Shown: one piece after another, positions 31,952 through 59,719 of the stretch
Position numbering within the stretch: position 1 is the stretch's first letter
Layout of the letters: each line of letters starts with the position of its first letter
DNA from: Aquanectria penicillioides
Taxonomy: Eukaryota; Ascomycota; Sordariomycetes; Hypocreales; Nectriaceae
Assembly: GCA_003415625.1 (NCBI GenBank)
Contig: PYIU01000001.1
Coordinates: forward strand, 1,984,001-2,048,000
Reading direction: 5' to 3'
Length of the DNA stretch: 64,000 nucleotides
Position numbers and translations under genes: made by a program
The notes under the pieces: generated by a model
What the model was told of the DNA's origin: nothing
Database searches by the model: none
What the model saw: the letters and a program-made list of their open reading frames with translations, nothing else

Positions 31952-34900
31952 ATGGCACCTTCCATCGGAAATGACGCCAATGGGCCGCCCCCAGACATTA
32001 GTATATCCATTGATCGCGGTGGCACCTTCTGTGATGTAATTGCCACAGTTCAAGGCCGTGACGACATCATTTTCAAGCTTTTATCCGAAGATCCCAACAA
32101 TTATGCCGACGCCCCGACTGAGGCAATCAGGCGAGTCTTGAGCCAGGTTGAAGATCGCAAAATCCCGCTTGAGGAGAAACTCGATGCTTCGCGAGTTGGT
32201 ATGACATTCTTCTGTATTTGAAACCAGTACAGTTTCTGAGGCGTTTTGTAGATTCGTGCAGAATTGGAACCACGATTGCAACCAATGCACTCCTAGAGCA
32301 TAAAGGAGAAAAGTTTGCATTTGTCACAACCAAGGGTAGGTGCTCTTGTCTTGTTTTGTTATCCAACCTAATATTCGGCTAGGATTTAAAGATGTCTGCG
32401 TTATTGGGGACCAAACGCGACCAAAGATCTTTGCTCTCCGAGTACAGAAGGCCAAAGCTCTACATCACCGAGTCGTTGAAGTCGACGAACGCATTACAGT
32501 CGAGGATTATGATCTCAACCCCTTTCCTATGGACAAGGAGGAAGACATTACCGACTCATCCTTGATCCGTACAAAAAGCGGCGAAATTATTAGGGTCCTC
32601 AAGAAAATCAACCCCGAGGCAGTTCGCGCTCAACTACAATCCCTTCGAGATGAAGGTTATGAGTCTGTAGCCATCTCATTTATGCACTCATACCTATACC
32701 CCGATCATGAAAGCGAGGTGGCAGCTATCGCAAAGGATATTGGCTTCAAATATATCACCACATCCAGTCAAACCAGCCCAACTATCAAGTTCCTAAGGAG
32801 AAGCACCTCAGTTTGCTCTGAAGCTTATCTTTACCCTGTCATCCGCCGCTATGTCGAAAATTTTGAGGCCGGCTTCAAAGTTCTCCCCCAACGAGTTGAG
32901 TTCATGTGCTCAGATGGTGGCCTGAAACAGTCTCAGAAGTTCAGTGGTAATGAAGCTCTTCTAAGTGGACCTGCCGGTGGTGTTGTGGGTATTGCCAAAT
33001 CTTGCTACGACGATGAAGAGGGCACTGCACTTATCGGATTTGACATGGGAGGTACCAGCACCGATGTCTGTCGGTTTGACGGAAAGTACGACTATCTCAC
33101 AGAATCTCGAATCGCCGAACGCACCATTACCGTTCCTATGCTAAATATCCAAACTGTCGCGGCTGGTGGCGGCTCTATTCTCTTTACTAGAAATGGACTG
33201 CTTGTTGTTGGTCCGGAGAGCGCAGGCGCATACCCAGGACCAGCGAGTTATCGAAATAGCGGTCCGCTAACTGTGACGGATGCCAACCTTTTCCTTGGAC
33301 GTCTGGACCTCTCTTCATTTCCAGCCATCTTCGGCAAGAATGCCAACGAGCCTCTAGATGTGGAAGTTGTCAACAAGAAATTTAGAGAGATCACAAGGGA
33401 ATTTAACGCACAAACCTCGCAGAACCTCACCCCTGAAGAGGTGGCCCTTGGATTCTTGAATGTCGCCAATGAAACAATGAGCCGACCCATCAGAAACGCT
33501 ACTGGTATGGTGCCCAATGCCATTCTTTAACATTTTGCTAATGAGGATACAGAGGCACGAGGATACGCTCCGGAGAAGCACAACTTAGTGAGTTTTGGTG
33601 GTGCTGGTGGTCGTAAGTACACCTTTAACTTCTACTTATATGGACATGATGACATGAAGTAACTTATTGATAGAACACGCCTGTTCAATTGCCGAGAAGC
33701 TTGGTATCAATCGCATCCTTATTCACAAGTGGTCCTCACTACTATCTGCTTATGGTATCTCGCAATCACAGCTGCAGCAAGAGGTTACGGAGCCTTACTC
33801 CGGAGATTTCAAACTTAAAGACTTGCCCCGTATCCGTGAGCGCATTAAAGTATTAAAGAAGACTGTGCAAGAAGAATTGCTAGCCCAAGGCGCCGACCAA
33901 GACTCACTACAGTTCGATGAATCACTAAGCTTGCGATATTTTGGCACGGATACAAATCTGTCTATATCTCGGCCTCAAGATGAAGACTATGGAGCCGCAT
34001 TTGTTTCCGAGCATATGAGAGAATTTGCTTTCGTTCTGGGCCGCAGGATTGTCATCGACTCAATCCAAGTACGGGGTACGGGCAATGCTGGGATCGTCAC
34101 CAAGAACACCCCGCCAACTCAAGAACTGGAGCAGGTCAAGATCAACCCTACCGTATCTACTGTTAATGAGCAGCAAAAGATATATGTCGCTAGTGGATGG
34201 AAAGATGCTAGCATTTATAGACTGTCTCAAATTGCCTTAGGCACAGTCATTGACGGTCCAGCGCTTATCCTCGATGAGACGCAGACCATCTACGTGGAGC
34301 CTCGGTTCCGCGCATATATCCTTTCCAGTCATGTTGTTATCGAGAAGGTCGAACATGGCGTCGGCAAGCGAGAAACAAGTGACGAGGAATCTAACCCCAT
34401 TCAACTTTCCGTCTTTGCGCACCGTTTTATGTCTATTGCGGAGCAAATGGGTAACACACTTCAGCGAACTTCCATTTCAACTAGTATTCGAGAGCGTCTT
34501 GACTTTTCTTGCGCCATCTTCTCGCCAGATGGCCAGCTTGTCGCCAACGCTCCTCATATTCCAATTCATCTTGGAAGCATGCAAATGGCTATTGAATCCC
34601 AACACCGTCACTGGCTCGGCAAGTTGCAGCCTGGTGATGTTCTTATGACGAACCACCCAGAGTGGGGTGGAACCCATCTTCCTGACATTACAGTCGTGAC
34701 ACCGGTCTTTGTTGGTAGTGAGATCGCATTCTACACGGCAAGTCGAGGACATCATACGGATATCGGTATGCCCCATTTAGATATCGTTTTTCTACAGCAA
34801 TGCTAACAGCTCTTAAGGCGGCAAAGGAATTACTTCAATGATGCCAGACTCAAGAGAGCTCTGGGAAGAGGGTGTGAACGTCAAGTCAATGAAGATTGTT

Positions 34901-36043
34901 AGTGGTGGTAAATTCCTTGAGGATGAAGTTCGTGAGGCCTTCAACCGGGCGGGAAGTTTCCCTGGATGCAGTCCTACAAGGCGTATCCAGGACAATATTT
35001 CCGACCTCAAGGCTCAAACTTCTGCCAACCAGCGCGGTATCACTCTCCTTCATAAACTCTGTGACGAGTTCACTCTCCCCATCGTACACAAATACATGAG
35101 GGGCATTCAAGCCAATGCTGAGGTTGCCGTCCGCGAGTATTTAAAGCAGGTTGCTAAGAAGCATCCCAACGGCCTTGAAGCTGAGGATGTTTTTGATAGT
35201 GGTACGCGGTTGAGGTTAAAGATTACCATTGATCCTAAAACAGGTTCAGCTGTCTATGACTTTGCTAGAACCGAGTCGCAGGGTTGGAGCAACATCAACT
35301 GCCCCATTTCAATTACTCATTCAGCTGTTATTTATACGATCCGATGTCTTATTGATCTAGAAATCCCTCTGAACCAGGGATGTCTGTCACCCATCGAGAT
35401 TCGTGTTCCCAAGGGCTCCGTCCTTAACCCCAATCCTTCAGTTGCAATCTGTGGAAGCACAATCGCTAGTCAGCGTGTCATTGACCTTATCTTGCGTGCC
35501 TACAAGGTGGTTGCTGCTTTCCAAGGCTGTGCAAGCAGCTTTGGCTGGGGCATGGGTGGACGCAATCCAGCCACAGGAGAAATAGAGCCTGGTTGGAACT
35601 ACGGTGAATCCATTGGTGGAGGCACAGGCGCTGGTCCAGGTTGGAACGGAGAACACGCCACTCACGCACATTCTACAAACACCCGTATCACTGATGCGGA
35701 GGTTATCGAAAAGCGTACTCAAGTTATCGTTCGCCGCTATGAGATCAACAAGGGCACTGGTGGTCGGGGCAAATGGTGTGGGGGTGATGGAATCACTCGT
35801 GAGATTGAAGCCAGAATCCCGCTCAAATCCAGCATTCTGAGTGAGCGGCGTGTATTCCCCCCTTACGGCATGGAAGGCGGAGAGCCCGCGAGTGTCGGAA
35901 GAAACTATGTACTCCGCTGGAATGATGAAGGAGGGTTGGATAAGATTAACCTAGGGTCTCAAGCAGTAGTGGACTTGAGGCCAGGTGAGAGGATGCAGAT
36001 CAACACTCCTGGAGGAGGCGGTTGGGGAAAGATTGGGAGTTGA
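31952..36043 (+). CDS. 5-oxoprolinase / hydantoinase family protein (ATP-hydrolysing)
   Basis: Six exons join at consensus introns: 31952-32198, 32252-32335, 32383-33504, 33553-33612, 33674-34765 and 34818-36043, giving about 1276 residues, the usual size of eukaryotic 5-oxoprolinase (yeast Oxp1-like). The N-terminal hydantoinase-A type half begins with the ATP-binding motif DRGGTFCD at residue 21 and RIGTTIATNALLEHKGE in exon 2. A second nucleotide-site motif, GFDMGGTSTDV, and a glycine block, AAGGGS, follow. The C-terminal hydantoinase-B half has NHPEWGGTHLPDI, SRGHHTDIGG across the last intron, and a C-terminal GGGGWG. The family opens 5-oxo-L-proline to glutamate in the glutathione (gamma-glutamyl) cycle in the cytosol. 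Fungi often have several paralogs acting on hydantoin-like rings, so the substrate is inferred. The start ATG lies in TCAATATGG. It is the first intact gene beside the RIP region and shows no RIP damage. Confidence 0.93.
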
Positions 36044-36562: not shown

Positions 36563-36572
36563 AAAAAGAAAA
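36563..36572 (-). terminator. Pol III terminator of tRNA-Phe copy 1
   Basis: On the minus strand TTTTCTTTTT follows the mature 3' end (36577) after four bases. T-runs of four or more terminate RNA polymerase III. Confidence 0.8.
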
Positions 36573-36576
36573 GTCT

Positions 36577-36703
36577 TGCGGTTTGTGTGGATCGAACACA
36601 CGACCTTCAGATCTTCAGTCTGACGCTCTCTGCCAGTGAAGGTTAGTTATATATCTCAGATGTGGATTGAATGATTCACGTACCCCAACTGAGCTAAACC
36701 CGC
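36577..36703 (-). tRNA. tRNA-Phe(GAA) copy 1 with spliceosomal-like intron in the D-loop
   Basis: The minus strand carries a 20-nt 5' part (36703-36684), a 54-nt insert (36683-36630) and a 53-nt 3' part (36629-36577). Joined, these give a 73-nt tRNA with acceptor GCGGGTT, D-stem GCTC/GAGC, anticodon stem TCAGA/TCTGA, loop CTGAAGA with anticodon GAA, T-stem GTGTG/CACAC, T-loop TTCGATC and discriminator A. The acceptor has one G5-A68 mismatch, present in all four copies. The insert starts GTACGT, has ACTAACC and ends GGCAG, so it carries donor, branch and acceptor signals of a spliceosomal intron. It lies between G20 and A21, not at the canonical 37/38 site. The A box (TAGCTCAGTTGG) is upstream and the B box (GTTCGATCC) downstream of the insert, so both internal promoter elements are intact. 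Confidence 0.93.
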
Positions 36704-36779
36704 GGTGTGGTGACGGCCGGGCCACTCTCGTGGCCCTAAGTTCGCAGGGGTCCAGGTGCAGATGTCAAAAACGAGAAAC

Positions 36780-36784
36780 AAAAA
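36780..36784 (-). terminator. Pol III terminator of tRNA-Phe copy 2
   Basis: TTTTT on the minus strand lies about 8 bases past the mature 3' end at 36793. Confidence 0.8.
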
Positions 36785-36792
36785 GAAATGCT

Positions 36793-36920
36793 TGCGGTTT
36801 GTGTGGATCGAACACACGACCTTCAGATCTTCAGTCTGACGCTCTCTGTAGAGATGGTTAGACTTTATGGTGCTGGAGTTTTACAAGTTTGACAACTTAC
36901 CCCAACTGAGCTAAACCCGC
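36793..36920 (-). tRNA. tRNA-Phe(GAA) copy 2 with spliceosomal-like intron in the D-loop
   Basis: The exons 36920-36901 and 36845-36793 are identical to copy 1. The insert at 36900-36846 is 55 nt, starts GTAAGTT, has TCTAACC and ends TACAG; the branch-like CTAAC is 11 nt from the acceptor. Removal restores a full cloverleaf with an uninterrupted anticodon loop. Its insert is clearly related to that of copy 3 but not to those of copies 1 and 4 outside the splice signals. It has its own oligo-T terminator. Confidence 0.93.
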
Positions 36921-36997
36921 TTAGTGTTGCCAGCCTCGCTGCTGTAGCAGCCGAAGTTGTCGAGCGAAAATTACATAGTGAAAAAGGGAACTAAAAC

Positions 36998-37002
36998 AAA
37001 AA
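36998..37002 (-). terminator. Pol III terminator of tRNA-Phe copy 3
   Basis: TTTTT on the minus strand lies about 7 bases past the mature 3' end at 37010. Confidence 0.8.
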
Positions 37003-37009
37003 GAAAGGA

Positions 37010-37138
37010 TGCGGTTTGTGTGGATCGAACACACGACCTTCAGATCTTCAGTCTGACGCTCTCTATAGAGATGGTTAGACTTTTGTGATGATGGAGTTTT
37101 CCAAGTTTGTTAACTTACCCCAACTGAGCTAAACCCGC
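37010..37138 (-). tRNA. tRNA-Phe(GAA) copy 3 with spliceosomal-like intron in the D-loop
   Basis: The exons 37138-37119 and 37062-37010 match copies 1 and 2. The insert at 37118-37063 is 56 nt, with GTAAGTT at its 5' end, TCTAACC near the 3' end and TATAG as acceptor. It resembles the copy 2 insert along its length with scattered substitutions and a one-base length change, as expected of an intron drifting after gene duplication while the tRNA halves stay fixed. Confidence 0.93.
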
Positions 37139-37214
37139 GTTGTTGAGCCGCGGAAGCGGATCTTCAGTTCTTATTCTCTAGTGGTGAGGAGCCGCATTTA
37201 GAAACAGAAAATGC

Positions 37215-37221
37215 AAAAAAA
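37215..37221 (-). terminator. Pol III terminator of tRNA-Phe copy 4
   Basis: A run of seven T on the minus strand lies a few bases past the mature 3' end at 37227. Confidence 0.82.
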
Positions 37222-37226
37222 GAAAG

Positions 37227-37354
37227 TGCGGTTTATGTGGATCGAACACATGACCTTCAGATCTTCAGTCTGACGCTCTCTGTCAGTGAAGGTTAGTGAT
37301 TTGCTTCATTTGAGGGAATTAGTATTGAACATACCCCAACTGAGCTAAACCCGC
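37227..37354 (-). tRNA. tRNA-Phe(GAA) copy 4 with spliceosomal-like intron and compensated T-stem
   Basis: The exons are 37354-37335 and 37279-37227. The insert at 37334-37280 is 55 nt, begins GTATGT, has CACTAACC and ends GACAG; its 3' third resembles that of copy 1. The mature part differs from the other copies by two changes that pair with each other in the T-stem (A49-T65 in place of G49-C65), so base pairing is kept. That compensation argues that the folded tRNA is, or recently was, under selection. Confidence 0.93.
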
Positions 37355-55237: not shown

Positions 55238-58200
55238 ATGCAGGCCTACACCGAGCTCGCGGCTCCCTCAGCCGTCACCCACTCCCTGAGCCTGCCTCTC
55301 ACGTCTGCAACCGCCATCAACCTCGTTGTCGCAAAGGGTTCACTGCTTCAGATCTTCACCACAAAGTCCATCTCCGCCGAATTCGATGCCCAGAACCAAG
55401 CCTCGCAGGCCGCAAAGGCTGAGCCCGAGTTTGACCTCCGAGCAAACGATGATGATGGCCTCGAGTCCTCCTTCCTTGGCGGGGAGTCGATGTTGGTGCG
55501 GACCGATCGAACAAACAACACGAAGCTCGTGCTGGTAGCAGAGATCCCGCTTGCTGGCGCCGTCATAGGATTGGCGAGGCTCAAGACAAAGCGCACAAAG
55601 TCGGGGGTGAAGCTCTCTTGCTGGCGTACCAGGCAGCCAAGATGTGCCTTGCGGAGTGGAATCCCAACAAGCACACGCTCGAGACTATCTCGATACACTA
55701 TTATGAGAAAGATGAACTGCAGGGCGCACCGTGGGAGAGCTCCTTTGGCGATTATGTCAATTTCCTCGAGGCAGACCCCGGGAGCAGATGCGCGGCGTTC
55801 AAGTTTGGGTCGCGAAACATCGCCATCCTCCCGTTCCGGCAGTCGGAAGAAGACTTGGAGATGGACGACTGGGATGAGGACCTCGACGGCCCACGGCCCG
55901 TCAAGGAGACCACTGCAGTCGCCAATGGAGATAGCGACAGTCTAGAAGCAGCGTATACACCGTCTTTTGTCCTTCGTCTCCCTCTGCTAGATCCCAGCCT
56001 GCTCCACCCCGTGCACCTCGCCTTTCTGCATGAGTATAGAGAGCCAACCTTTGGCATTCTCTCGTCCAGTCAATCGTCTGCACACTCCCTGGGCCAGAAA
56101 GATCACCTTACCTACAAGGTCTTCACTCTGGACCTGCAGCAGCGTGCTTCCACTACCATCCTGTCCGTCACAGATCTGCCCCGTGGCCTTTTCAAGGTCA
56201 TTGCGCTGCCTGCCCCAGTGGGAGGAGCCCTGTTGATGGGCCAGAATGAGTTGATCCACATCGATCAGTCAGGAAAAGCCAATGGAGTTTCCGTCAATGC
56301 AATGGCAAAGCAAATGACTTCCTTCAGCTTAATAGACCAGGCTGAGCTAGATCTCCGGTTGGAGGGCAGTACTGTTGGCCAACTTTCCATAGAAAATGGC
56401 GAGTTGTTGCTGATTCTAAATGATGGCAGAATTGCTATCGTCTCTTTCCGAGTTGACGGCCGCACCGTCTCAGGCATCAACGTGAGGATGGTTGCTTCAG
56501 AAAACGGAGGAGATCTTGTCAAGACTCGTGCTTCATGCATCTCGAAGCTCAGCAAGAACACGGTTTTCGTTGGAAGCGAGACAGGAAACCCCCTCGTCCT
56601 CGGCTGGACAAGGAAGCAAGGGCAGGAAAAGCGTCGCAAGGCCCGCGTGGTCGACCCCGACCTGGCGTTGGATGTCGATGATTTAGATCTCGACGACGAT
56701 GATGACGAAGATGACGACTTGTATGGCACAGAATCCGCGGCTGCGAAGCCCTCACAGGCGAGCAACGGGGCTGGGAAACAAGGCGAGCTAAGTTTCCGCA
56801 TTCACGACAGCCTGCTCAGTATCGCTCCTATCCAGGAGTTTACGACTGGCAAAGCATCTTTCCTTCCCGACAGCGAGGAGGCGACCCTTTCGAAGGGTGT
56901 TGTTGCCGAGTTACAACTGGCGTGCGCTGTTGGCCGTGGCAATTCTAGCTCGCTCGCATTGTTGAACCGGAAAATCCAGCCCAAGATTGTAGGGCGCTTC
57001 GAATTCCCAGAAGCTCGAGACTTCTGGACTATGGCGGTCAAGAAGCCGATTCCCAAGTCCCTAGGCGCCAATGTCGCCGCTGACAGCGACTACGAAACAT
57101 TTGGACAGTATGACAAGTTCATGATTGTGGCCAAGGTGGATCTCGATGGTTATGAGACGTCGGATGTTTATGCCCTTACGGCCGCAGGTTTCGAGACGCT
57201 GAAGGAGACGGAGTTTGACCCAGCCGCCGGATTTACTGTCGAAGCTGGAACTATGGGCAAGCAAATGCGGATTATCCAGGTCTTGAAGTCTGAAGTCCGT
57301 TCTTACGACGGAGGTATGTTGATATTTCCCTTACACAATCACTGATACAGCGACTAACAGACCTCAGATCTTGGCCTTATCCAAATCTTGCCCATGCTTG
57401 ACGAGGAGACTGGCGCGGAGCCCAGAGTAACTGGTGCCAGCATTGCAGACCCCTACCTCCTTCTCATCCGTGATGATAGCAGCGCCTTCATTGCCCAGAT
57501 CGACAGCAACAACGAGCTCGAAGAGGTTGAAAAGACCGACAGCATTCTTACCAGCACGAAATGGGTGGCAGGATGTCTATACACCGATGCCAAGGGTACA
57601 TTCCAGACCATCGCCAGCGATAAGGGTGCAGATATGGAGCCCAAGATTATGGTGTTTTTGCTAAGCTCAACCGGATCGCTCTATGTAAGTGCCCTCCCTC
57701 CTCGCCCATGTGCACGTGAATATGGGCATTGTTGACAATTGATAGATATATGCCCTCCCGGATCTCTCTAAGCCAGTTTATGTGGCTGAGGGTCTGTCTT
57801 ATGTTCCCCCTTTCCTATCCTGCAACTACGCTCACCGTCGAGGCATGGCCCGCGAGTCACTCCGTGAGATCATGGTTGCCGATCTGGGAGACTCAGTGTC
57901 ACAGTCGCCATACCTCATCCTCCGTCACCCCACCGACGACCTCACCATTTACGAACCCATCCGTTACCAGCCCGAGGGCTCAGAGCCTAGTCTCAAGACA
58001 TCCCTCTCCTTCAAGAAATCTTTCAACTCCACTCTTGCCGCAGCGCCTGTCGAGCCCACAGGCGACGGTGACGACACAGTCCAGCAGCCCCGGTTCGTCC
58101 CTCTGCGTGCATGCGCCAATGTCAACGGGTACAGCACCGTTTTCCTCCCAGGGCCATCACCTAGCTTCGTCATCAAGTCCAGCAAGAGCATCCCTCGCGT

Positions 58201-59719
58201 GGTTGGTCTTCAAGGTCTTGGTGTGAGAGGCATGAGCCCGTTCCACACGGAAGGCTGTGATCGAGGCTTCATCTACGCTGATAATGAGGGCATTGCTCGC
58301 GTCACACAGTTGCCCCCGGACACCAACTTCACCGAGCTTGGCGTCTCAGTCAAGAAAGTGCCACTGAATTGTGACGTGCGCGGGATTGCGTACCACCACC
58401 CTACGGGCACTTACATTGCAGGCTGCATGTCGTACGAACCCTTTGAGCTGCCCCGCGACGACGATTATCACAAAGAGTGGTCCAAGGAGGCGGTCCCATT
58501 CCCTCCCACCGTGGCGCGCGGCGTCCTCAAGCTCATCAGCCCCATCAGCTGGACCGTCATCCACGACCTGGAGCTGGAAGCTTGCGAGTCGATTGAGTGC
58601 ATGAAGACGCTGCACCTGGAAGTTTCAGAAGAGACCAAGGAGCGGCGCATGCTGCTTGCTGTCGGCACAGCCGTCTCCAAGGGTGAAGACCTGCCCATCC
58701 GCGGCCGGGTGCACGTCTTTGACATTGTTACGGTCATCCCCGAGCCGGGCCGTCCAGAGACCAACAAGCGCCTGAAGCTCATCGCGCGCGAGGACATCCC
58801 TCGCGGCGGCGTCACGGCGCTATCCGAGATCGGCACGCAAGGCCTCATGCTCGTCGCGCAGGGCCAGAAGTGCATGGTGCGCGGTCTTAAGGAGGACGGC
58901 TCCCTGCTGCCCGTGGCCTTCCTCGACATGAGCTGCCACGTCTCCAGCACGCGCACGCTGCCCCGGACCGGCCTGTGCCTGATGGCCGACGCGTTCAAGG
59001 GTGTGTGGTTTGCCGGATACACGGAGGAGCCCTACACATTCAAGATCCTTGGTAAGAGCAATGGTCGATTGCCGTTGATTGTGGCCGACTTCCTCCCCGA
59101 CGGCGAGGACCTGGCCATTGTTGCCGCCGATGCCGACGGCGATCTGCACATCCTCGACTTCAACCCCGAACGTAAGTCTTCTGATAGCGACCCCTGAATT
59201 ACCTCCACCATGATGCATCTCGATGCTAACAATCTCTGTAGATCCCAAATCCCTCCAAGGCCACCTCCTCCTCCACCGCACATCCTTCTCTGTAACGCCC
59301 AACCCTCCGTCATCCACCCTCCTCCTCCCGCGCACCCTCCCCCCACGCATGCGACCCCCGACTCGCCTCCTCACATCCTCGTCCTCGCCTCTCCCTCCGG
59401 CCACCTCTCCACCCTCGTGCCGCTCCCCGAGACGACCTACCGCCGCCTCCTCTCCGTGACGAACCAGCTCCTCCCCGCGCTGGTCCCCCACGGCGGCCTC
59501 AACGCCAAGGCCCACCGCCTAGGCGAGGGCAACCGCGCCGTGGGCGTTGAGACGGCCGCGGGCCGCACCATTGTCGACGGCGCCGTGTTGGCCCGGTGGA
59601 CCGAACTAGCTGCCGCGAAGCGCGCCGAGATCGCCGGCAAGGGTGGATACGACGGCGTGGCCGAGCTGCGAGACGAACTTGATGCGTTGTTGGGTTGGAG
59701 CGGGTTGGCGTATTTTTAA
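55238..59719 (+). CDS. CFT1: CFT1 / CPSF160, cleavage and polyadenylation factor subunit (with two apparent single-base indels)
   Basis: Four exons, 55238-57313, 57368-57684, 57746-59171 and 59242-59719, give about 1432 residues once two one-base gaps are allowed for, matching fungal Cft1. The N-terminus, MQAYTELAAPSAVTHSLSL, and NLVVAKGSLLQIF are diagnostic. Family blocks include LETISIHYYEKDELQG, GPRPVKETT, an Asp-rich stretch (DLDLDDDDDEDDD), and the C-terminal CPSF-A region with GHLLLHRT and GYDGVAELRDELDALLGWSG. Cft1 is the beta-propeller scaffold of the nuclear polyadenylation factor that binds pre-mRNA at the cleavage signal; it is essential in yeast. The frame breaks at a G5 run (55603-55607), where KSG must continue as GEALLLAY, and again within C-runs at 59339-59359. 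No GT-AG intron bridges either. Assembly indels are the likeliest explanation; a dead gene is the alternative. Confidence 0.92.

Follow-up and report, generated by a model that had tools for sequence, protein, structure and literature searches.

All nine tRNA-Phe(GAA) genes found in the genome of this fungus are split between tRNA positions 20 and 21 by inserts that carry the signals of mRNA introns. As judged from the sequence, these inserts are very probably spliceosomal (U2-type) introns that reside in an RNA polymerase III (Pol III) tRNA-Phe precursor and would be removed by the nuclear spliceosome. Provided that no unsplit gene exists, the spliceosome is likely to represent the only route of the fungus to cytosolic tRNA-Phe.

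The window, i.e., the whole 64-kb stretch of DNA that was analysed, corresponds to positions 1984001-2048000 of contig C1 in an assembly of 53.76 Mb and 13 contigs. Four tandem tRNA-Phe(GAA) genes occur on its minus strand at window positions 36577-37354 with a spacing of 216-218 bases, and in each of them an insert separates a 5' exon of 20 nt from a 3' exon of 53 nt. Gene 1 (36577-36703) has its 5' exon at 36684-36703 and its 3' exon at 36577-36629, separated by a spliceosomal-type intron of 54 nt (36630-36683; GTACGT...CTAAC...CAG). Gene 2 (36793-36920; exons 36901-36920 and 36793-36845) is interrupted by 55 nt (36846-36900; GTAAGT...CTAAC...CAG), gene 3 (37010-37138; exons 37119-37138 and 37010-37062) by 56 nt (37063-37118; GTAAGT...CTAAC...TAG) and gene 4 (37227-37354; exons 37335-37354 and 37227-37279), in which pair 49-65 is A-U and not G-C, by 55 nt (37280-37334; GTATGT...CTAAC...CAG), all three introns being of the same spliceosomal type. 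T runs that are probable Pol III terminators follow the 3' end of each gene, at 36563-36567 (five T) for gene 1 and at 36780-36784, 36998-37002 and 37215-37221 for genes 2 to 4. The first-pass annotation had described the four split genes with these insert lengths, insert position, donors and acceptors, and all its details were confirmed, including a CTAAC close to the acceptor, which ends 12, 11, 11 and 12 nt before the end of the respective insert.

Excision exactly at GT and AG returned the 73-nt tRNAs that had been predicted, and ARAGORN assigned them as Phe(GAA). The cloverleaf is paired as previously described, with 20 intact pairs and a single G5-A68 mismatch that is common to all nine copies of the genome. 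ARAGORN recognised tRNA-Phe(GAA) in nine of nine excised genes and in none of the nine unspliced ones; when introns were allowed, the unspliced genes gave calls in two cases, as Thr and Leu, and a scan of the 64-kb window by the same program found no tRNA. At its cut-off, Rfam detected one of the four window copies (gene 2), which was also the only one detected among the nine genomic copies. Standard tools thus overlook split genes of this kind. The restored cloverleaf with its GAA anticodon fits a functional nuclear tRNA-Phe gene, of which expression and maturation are putative.

The whole assembly was searched for tRNA-Phe with four queries: anticodon arm, 5' exon and T arm plus acceptor, for each of which up to 3 mismatches were allowed, and the complete gene as DNA. 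Although such pattern searches give counts that are lower bounds, all four query types converged on the same nine tRNA-Phe(GAA) loci, four in the window, two elsewhere on C1, one on C2 and two on C8. The initial observation was therefore correct for the four tandem genes and incomplete for the genome, where five further split copies occur. The insert lies at 20/21 in all nine genes, and not at the 37/38 position of the canonical intron cut by the tRNA endonuclease SEN. No unsplit tRNA-Phe gene was detected in the 53.76 Mb by the four query types; the separate canonical gene set that would have spoken against the first-pass annotation was thus not found. An additional three-mismatch locus returned by one of these searches was dropped, since ARAGORN sees no tRNA there. 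Unless an unsplit copy is missing from the assembly, the cell would have to remove the inserts in order to read Phe codons.

Other tRNA genes were sampled by scoring 63 of 2343 first-look candidates, a partial sample which gave 62 matches, none of them one of the nine tRNA-Phe genes, and lacks Ala, Glu, His, Lys, Trp and Tyr. All 62 were read as tRNA genes under 13 labels, some of which may be wrong, and 19 of them showed introns of 7-31 nt in the anticodon loop, the only location in which ARAGORN allows introns. A motif combining an A box with GTANGT occurred at 24 places with a first spacing (nine of them being the tRNA-Phe genes; reversed-motif control, 63) and at 12 places with a second spacing (control, 54). 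Over the two spacings, 25 of the 27 places outside tRNA-Phe had a candidate acceptor and none gave a tRNA after virtual splicing. A B-box motif scan returned 199 places versus 144 in the control. Exact scans of viral contigs and of bacterial and archaeal genome contigs gave no match, as expected.

The splice signals are complete in all nine inserts. The donor is GTA[A/C/T]GT, in agreement with the U2-type GTRNGT; the branch is CTAAC, with 12-13 nt following the branch A, as expected for a CTRAY located 10-20 nt before the acceptor; and the acceptor is a YAG, represented by CAG in eight inserts and TAG in one. The flanking exon bases are G before and A after the insert. The tRNA exons fix the cut site to two equivalent registers, one of which corresponds to GT-AG. 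These features were compared with three mRNA introns of a CPSF1-like gene on the plus strand of the window, verified by an open reading frame across the joins: one of 54 nt (57314-57367; GTATGT, CTAAC, CAG), one of 61 nt (57685-57745; GTAAGT, TTGAC, TAG) and one of 70 nt (59172-59241; GTAAGT, CTAAC, TAG). In a study of 2022 introns in 226 core genes of Fusarium, the donor consensus is G53/G100 T99 A74 A42 G93 T66, with A, C and T common at position 4 and G at 4%, CTRAY occurs in 91% and YAG/R in 94%, and the median length is 57 nt (PMC5677156). The tRNA-Phe inserts show the same donor variation as these Fusarium introns, and their length of 54-56 nt is usual for the lineage. The length, which the first-pass annotation had called typical of ascomycete mRNA introns, and the signals match both the CPSF1-like introns and the Fusarium consensus.

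A chance control was carried out on 549,960 stretches of 54-56 nt taken from both strands of window positions 31001-64000 and of 15 other loci (two of which overlap), a sample that includes the tRNA-Phe loci by design. Of these stretches, 375 start with GTANGT, 16 of the 375 end with YAG, and 11 of the 16 have a properly spaced CTRAC. Nine of the 11 are the tRNA-Phe inserts; the other two are the CPSF1 intron and an insert in a U6 gene, with no match elsewhere. The signals of the tRNA-Phe inserts exceed chance; the nine introns are related to one another and do not count as nine independent observations.

Donor, branch and acceptor are kept in all inserts although the insert cores have diverged, with identities of 42-66% between three subfamilies and 69-88% within them. 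The stretch from branch to acceptor (CTAACC.TC.CT) is more conserved across subfamilies than splice signals require, a feature that speaks against the spliceosomal reading. As a possible trace of a donor intron, the 18-base tail of six inserts was searched in its six-copy form, and the genome showed no other occurrence when up to 2 mismatches were allowed. The exons of the nine copies are identical except for pair 49-65, which is never mixed: six copies have G-C and three have A-U. The A-U form is found with two intron subfamilies, which suggests exchange between copies.

The nine genes also share the features of Pol III transcription. An A box and a B box are present in all of them, the insert starting right after G19-G20, behind the A box; the distance between the two boxes is 99-101 nt in the unspliced gene and 45 nt after excision. 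In every case a run of 5-7 T starts 6-10 nt past the 3' exon and a TCA or CAA occurs at most 15 nt upstream of the gene. The precursor of the split genes is thus a probable Pol III transcript.

A matching insert was found in a U6 snRNA gene on C1, where 54 nt (C1:3831966-3832019) with the signals GTAAGT...CTAAC...CAG lie between AAACGAT and the ACAGAG of the ACAGAGA box. The gene is preceded by TTATAATG and shows a run of 7 T, and its insert contains GTTCGAATTC, which is B-box-like; the U6 introns of fission yeast likewise contain a B box. A second U6-like gene, on C7, is continuous at that site, without the insert. For SRP RNA, the sole match spans the model and shows no large insert (302 nt versus 293 positions). 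The genome appears, from its signals, to hold spliceosomal introns in both tRNA-Phe and U6, two different Pol III RNAs, and the U6 insert suggests that the spliceosome of this fungus handles Pol III transcripts. The U6 intron itself belongs to a known kind, since an mRNA-type, spliced intron was described in fission yeast U6 snRNA (Tani and Ohshima 1989, 1991, as cited in PMC10484740). Like the putative introns of tRNA-Phe, the fission yeast intron is spliceosomal and resides in a small structured RNA, U6 being a Pol III product; however, U6 is a component of the spliceosome, and reverse splicing was suggested by the position of its intron close to the catalytic nucleotides. In contrast, tRNA-Phe has no link to the spliceosome, and nine of the nine gene copies found are affected.

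The inserts might instead be ectopic tRNA introns that SEN cuts at a bulge-helix-bulge (BHB) motif, like those of Cyanidioschyzon merolae and archaea, with the mRNA-like signals arising by coincidence. Such a route appears to be present in this fungus, as two PF01974 endonuclease-family matches were found in the genome and anticodon-loop introns occur in 19 of the 62 sampled tRNA genes. The location is not without parallel either: the ectopic tRNA introns of C. merolae, nucleomorphs and archaea lie outside 37/38 like the tRNA-Phe inserts (PMC9602550, PMC3978253, PMC4090602), and 20/21 is listed for archaeal introns (PMC4090602) and also occurs in one permuted C. merolae tRNA (PMC3978253). A BHB was looked for in three pairing layouts and the two equivalent cut registers, and the only notable layout was compared with random insert ends. 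In this layout, exon positions 15-18 pair with insert positions -6 to -3 at four of four positions in six copies and at three of four in the remaining three, but two or three of the pairs are G-U in the six copies and the other three contain a mismatch. Random insert ends with YAG reached at least three of four pairs in 49% of cases and four of four in 12%, so that the central helix is at the level of chance, and the inner helix is missing in all nine copies. The BHB motif at the insert ends was therefore rejected. SEN cutting would also leave GTAHGT and CTAAC unexplained in all nine inserts, and we regard this alternative as improbable. The introns of C. merolae and archaea are tied to a BHB and the tRNA endonuclease, whereas the tRNA-Phe inserts combine a chance-level BHB with complete spliceosomal signals. 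Canonical 37/38 introns, such as those of the 19 sampled genes, likewise reside in a Pol III tRNA precursor; the tRNA-Phe inserts differ from them in position, in their greater length (54-56 versus 7-31 nt) and in their spliceosomal signals.

A silent or decayed state of the nine genes, with cytosolic tRNA-Phe derived from an unsplit gene absent from the assembly, is very unlikely. An incomplete assembly and pattern counts that are lower bounds would leave room for such a gene; however, decay would hardly leave exons that are the same in nine copies save for one pair changed on both sides, would not be expected to retain A box, B box and T run in all nine, and does not fit splice signals that stay invariant while the cores diverge. 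Alternatively, the introns might be spliceosomal and the genes read by RNA polymerase II, so that no Pol III transcript would meet the spliceosome. Spliceosomal signals are indeed normally read in Pol II transcripts, but the A and B boxes, the T runs of at least five within 10 nt and the upstream TCA or CAA, present nine times out of nine, argue against such transcription, as does the U6 gene, where an insert of the same kind is accompanied by TTATAATG and the 7-T run. We consider this reading extremely unlikely.

The proposal of the first-pass annotation that a Pol III transcript may depend on the spliceosome is accordingly supported by the splitting of all nine genes, the mRNA-type signals, the chance-level BHB and the U6 insert, from which we infer the removal itself. 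In the spliceosomal mechanism, Pol III would transcribe through the A box, the intron and the B box and stop at the T run. Pairing of U1 with the GTAHGT that follows the A box immediately, and of U2 with CTAAC, would lead to two transesterifications that ligate G20 to A21. The spliced tRNA-Phe would then fold, and trimming, modification and export would follow. Against this mechanism, Pol III transcripts are devoid of the cap and the Pol II tail that normally aid splicing. In terms of origin, a released intron may have entered a mature tRNA by reverse splicing, the route that has been proposed for the introns of U6, and the copy of this tRNA may have then spread to all loci; reverse splicing into a mature tRNA would also account for the fact that no 37/38 intron is left in the tRNA-Phe genes.

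Folding of the precursors was explored by calculation. The predicted minimum-energy folds lie 7.6-14.0 kcal/mol below the cloverleaf-constrained RNA, and in the consensus predicted for all nine the anticodon stem, the T stem and a portion of the acceptor stem persist and the D stem is lost. Such non-cloverleaf folds, calculated without modifications, would weakly suggest that splicing ahead of tRNA folding is plausible; their weight is limited by the spliced A-U form, which was also predicted as non-cloverleaf. The mean unpaired probability over the nine precursors was 0.01-0.53 for the donor, 0.24-0.67 for the branch and 0.62-0.69 for the acceptor; the donor is thus often predicted to be paired, which would speak against easy access of U1. 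A pairing between intron tail and anticodon arm seen in the folds of six copies was rejected, as in 1000 shuffles for each of the nine copies the fraction at least as stable was 0.008-0.42 and exceeded 0.04 in eight of nine. Yeast Trm5 is described as nuclear and acting on spliced tRNA-Phe only (PMC4090602). Spliceosomal removal would locate tRNA-Phe splicing in the nucleus and might, as a speculative benefit, spare re-import.

We consider it probable that the spliceosome has taken over an entire essential tRNA species from the tRNA endonuclease, all cytosolic tRNA-Phe being spliced from a Pol III precursor. The splicing of tRNA and that of mRNA are regarded as distinct systems, a division that would be broken by a spliceosomal intron in every known copy of a tRNA. 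Such introns would represent a further class of tRNA introns beside group I, group II and endonuclease-cut ones, and would couple translation directly to the splicing apparatus via tRNA-Phe. The spliceosome would moreover act on a Pol III transcript that is highly structured and in which a tRNA exon of 20 nt precedes the intron, and the split genes offer a testable trace of reverse splicing into structured RNA. Spliceosomal introns also occur in the rDNA of lichen-forming ascomycetes, again in a structural RNA that is not made by Pol II, but the host there is a Pol I rRNA and not a tRNA. Among the titles listed from the open literature searched, none concerned a spliceosomal intron in a tRNA, and the term "spliceosom" is absent from the tRNA-intron review PMC4090602. 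The earlier view that no precedent had been described holds for tRNA within this literature and fails for the mechanism, as mRNA-type introns are known in U6 genes, which are transcribed by Pol III (PMC10484740). The kind of intron is therefore known, and its nuclear tRNA host is new as far as searched.

Finally, the surroundings of the tRNA-Phe genes were inspected. Window positions 1-31000 show 12-21% GC in 2-kb steps next to a region at 46-60% GC, and this AT-rich part resembles the outcome of repeat-induced mutation of a repeat block. Three successive open stretches on the plus strand at 32340-36043 look like parts of one gene, probably separated by introns, which we take to be of the 5-oxoprolinase/hydantoinase type. 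Protein comparisons point to a Nectriaceae-like ascomycete as the source of the genome, Thelonectria being a member of Nectriaceae (Hypocreales). A full-length LMBR1-type protein of the window shares 90% identity with one of Thelonectria olida, 89% with Cylindrodendrum hubeiense and 87% with Mariannaea and Ilyonectria. The GIT1-like transporter shows 81-85% identity to the same genera, and the best match of the CPSF1 exon, among mostly unnamed ones, is 84%.
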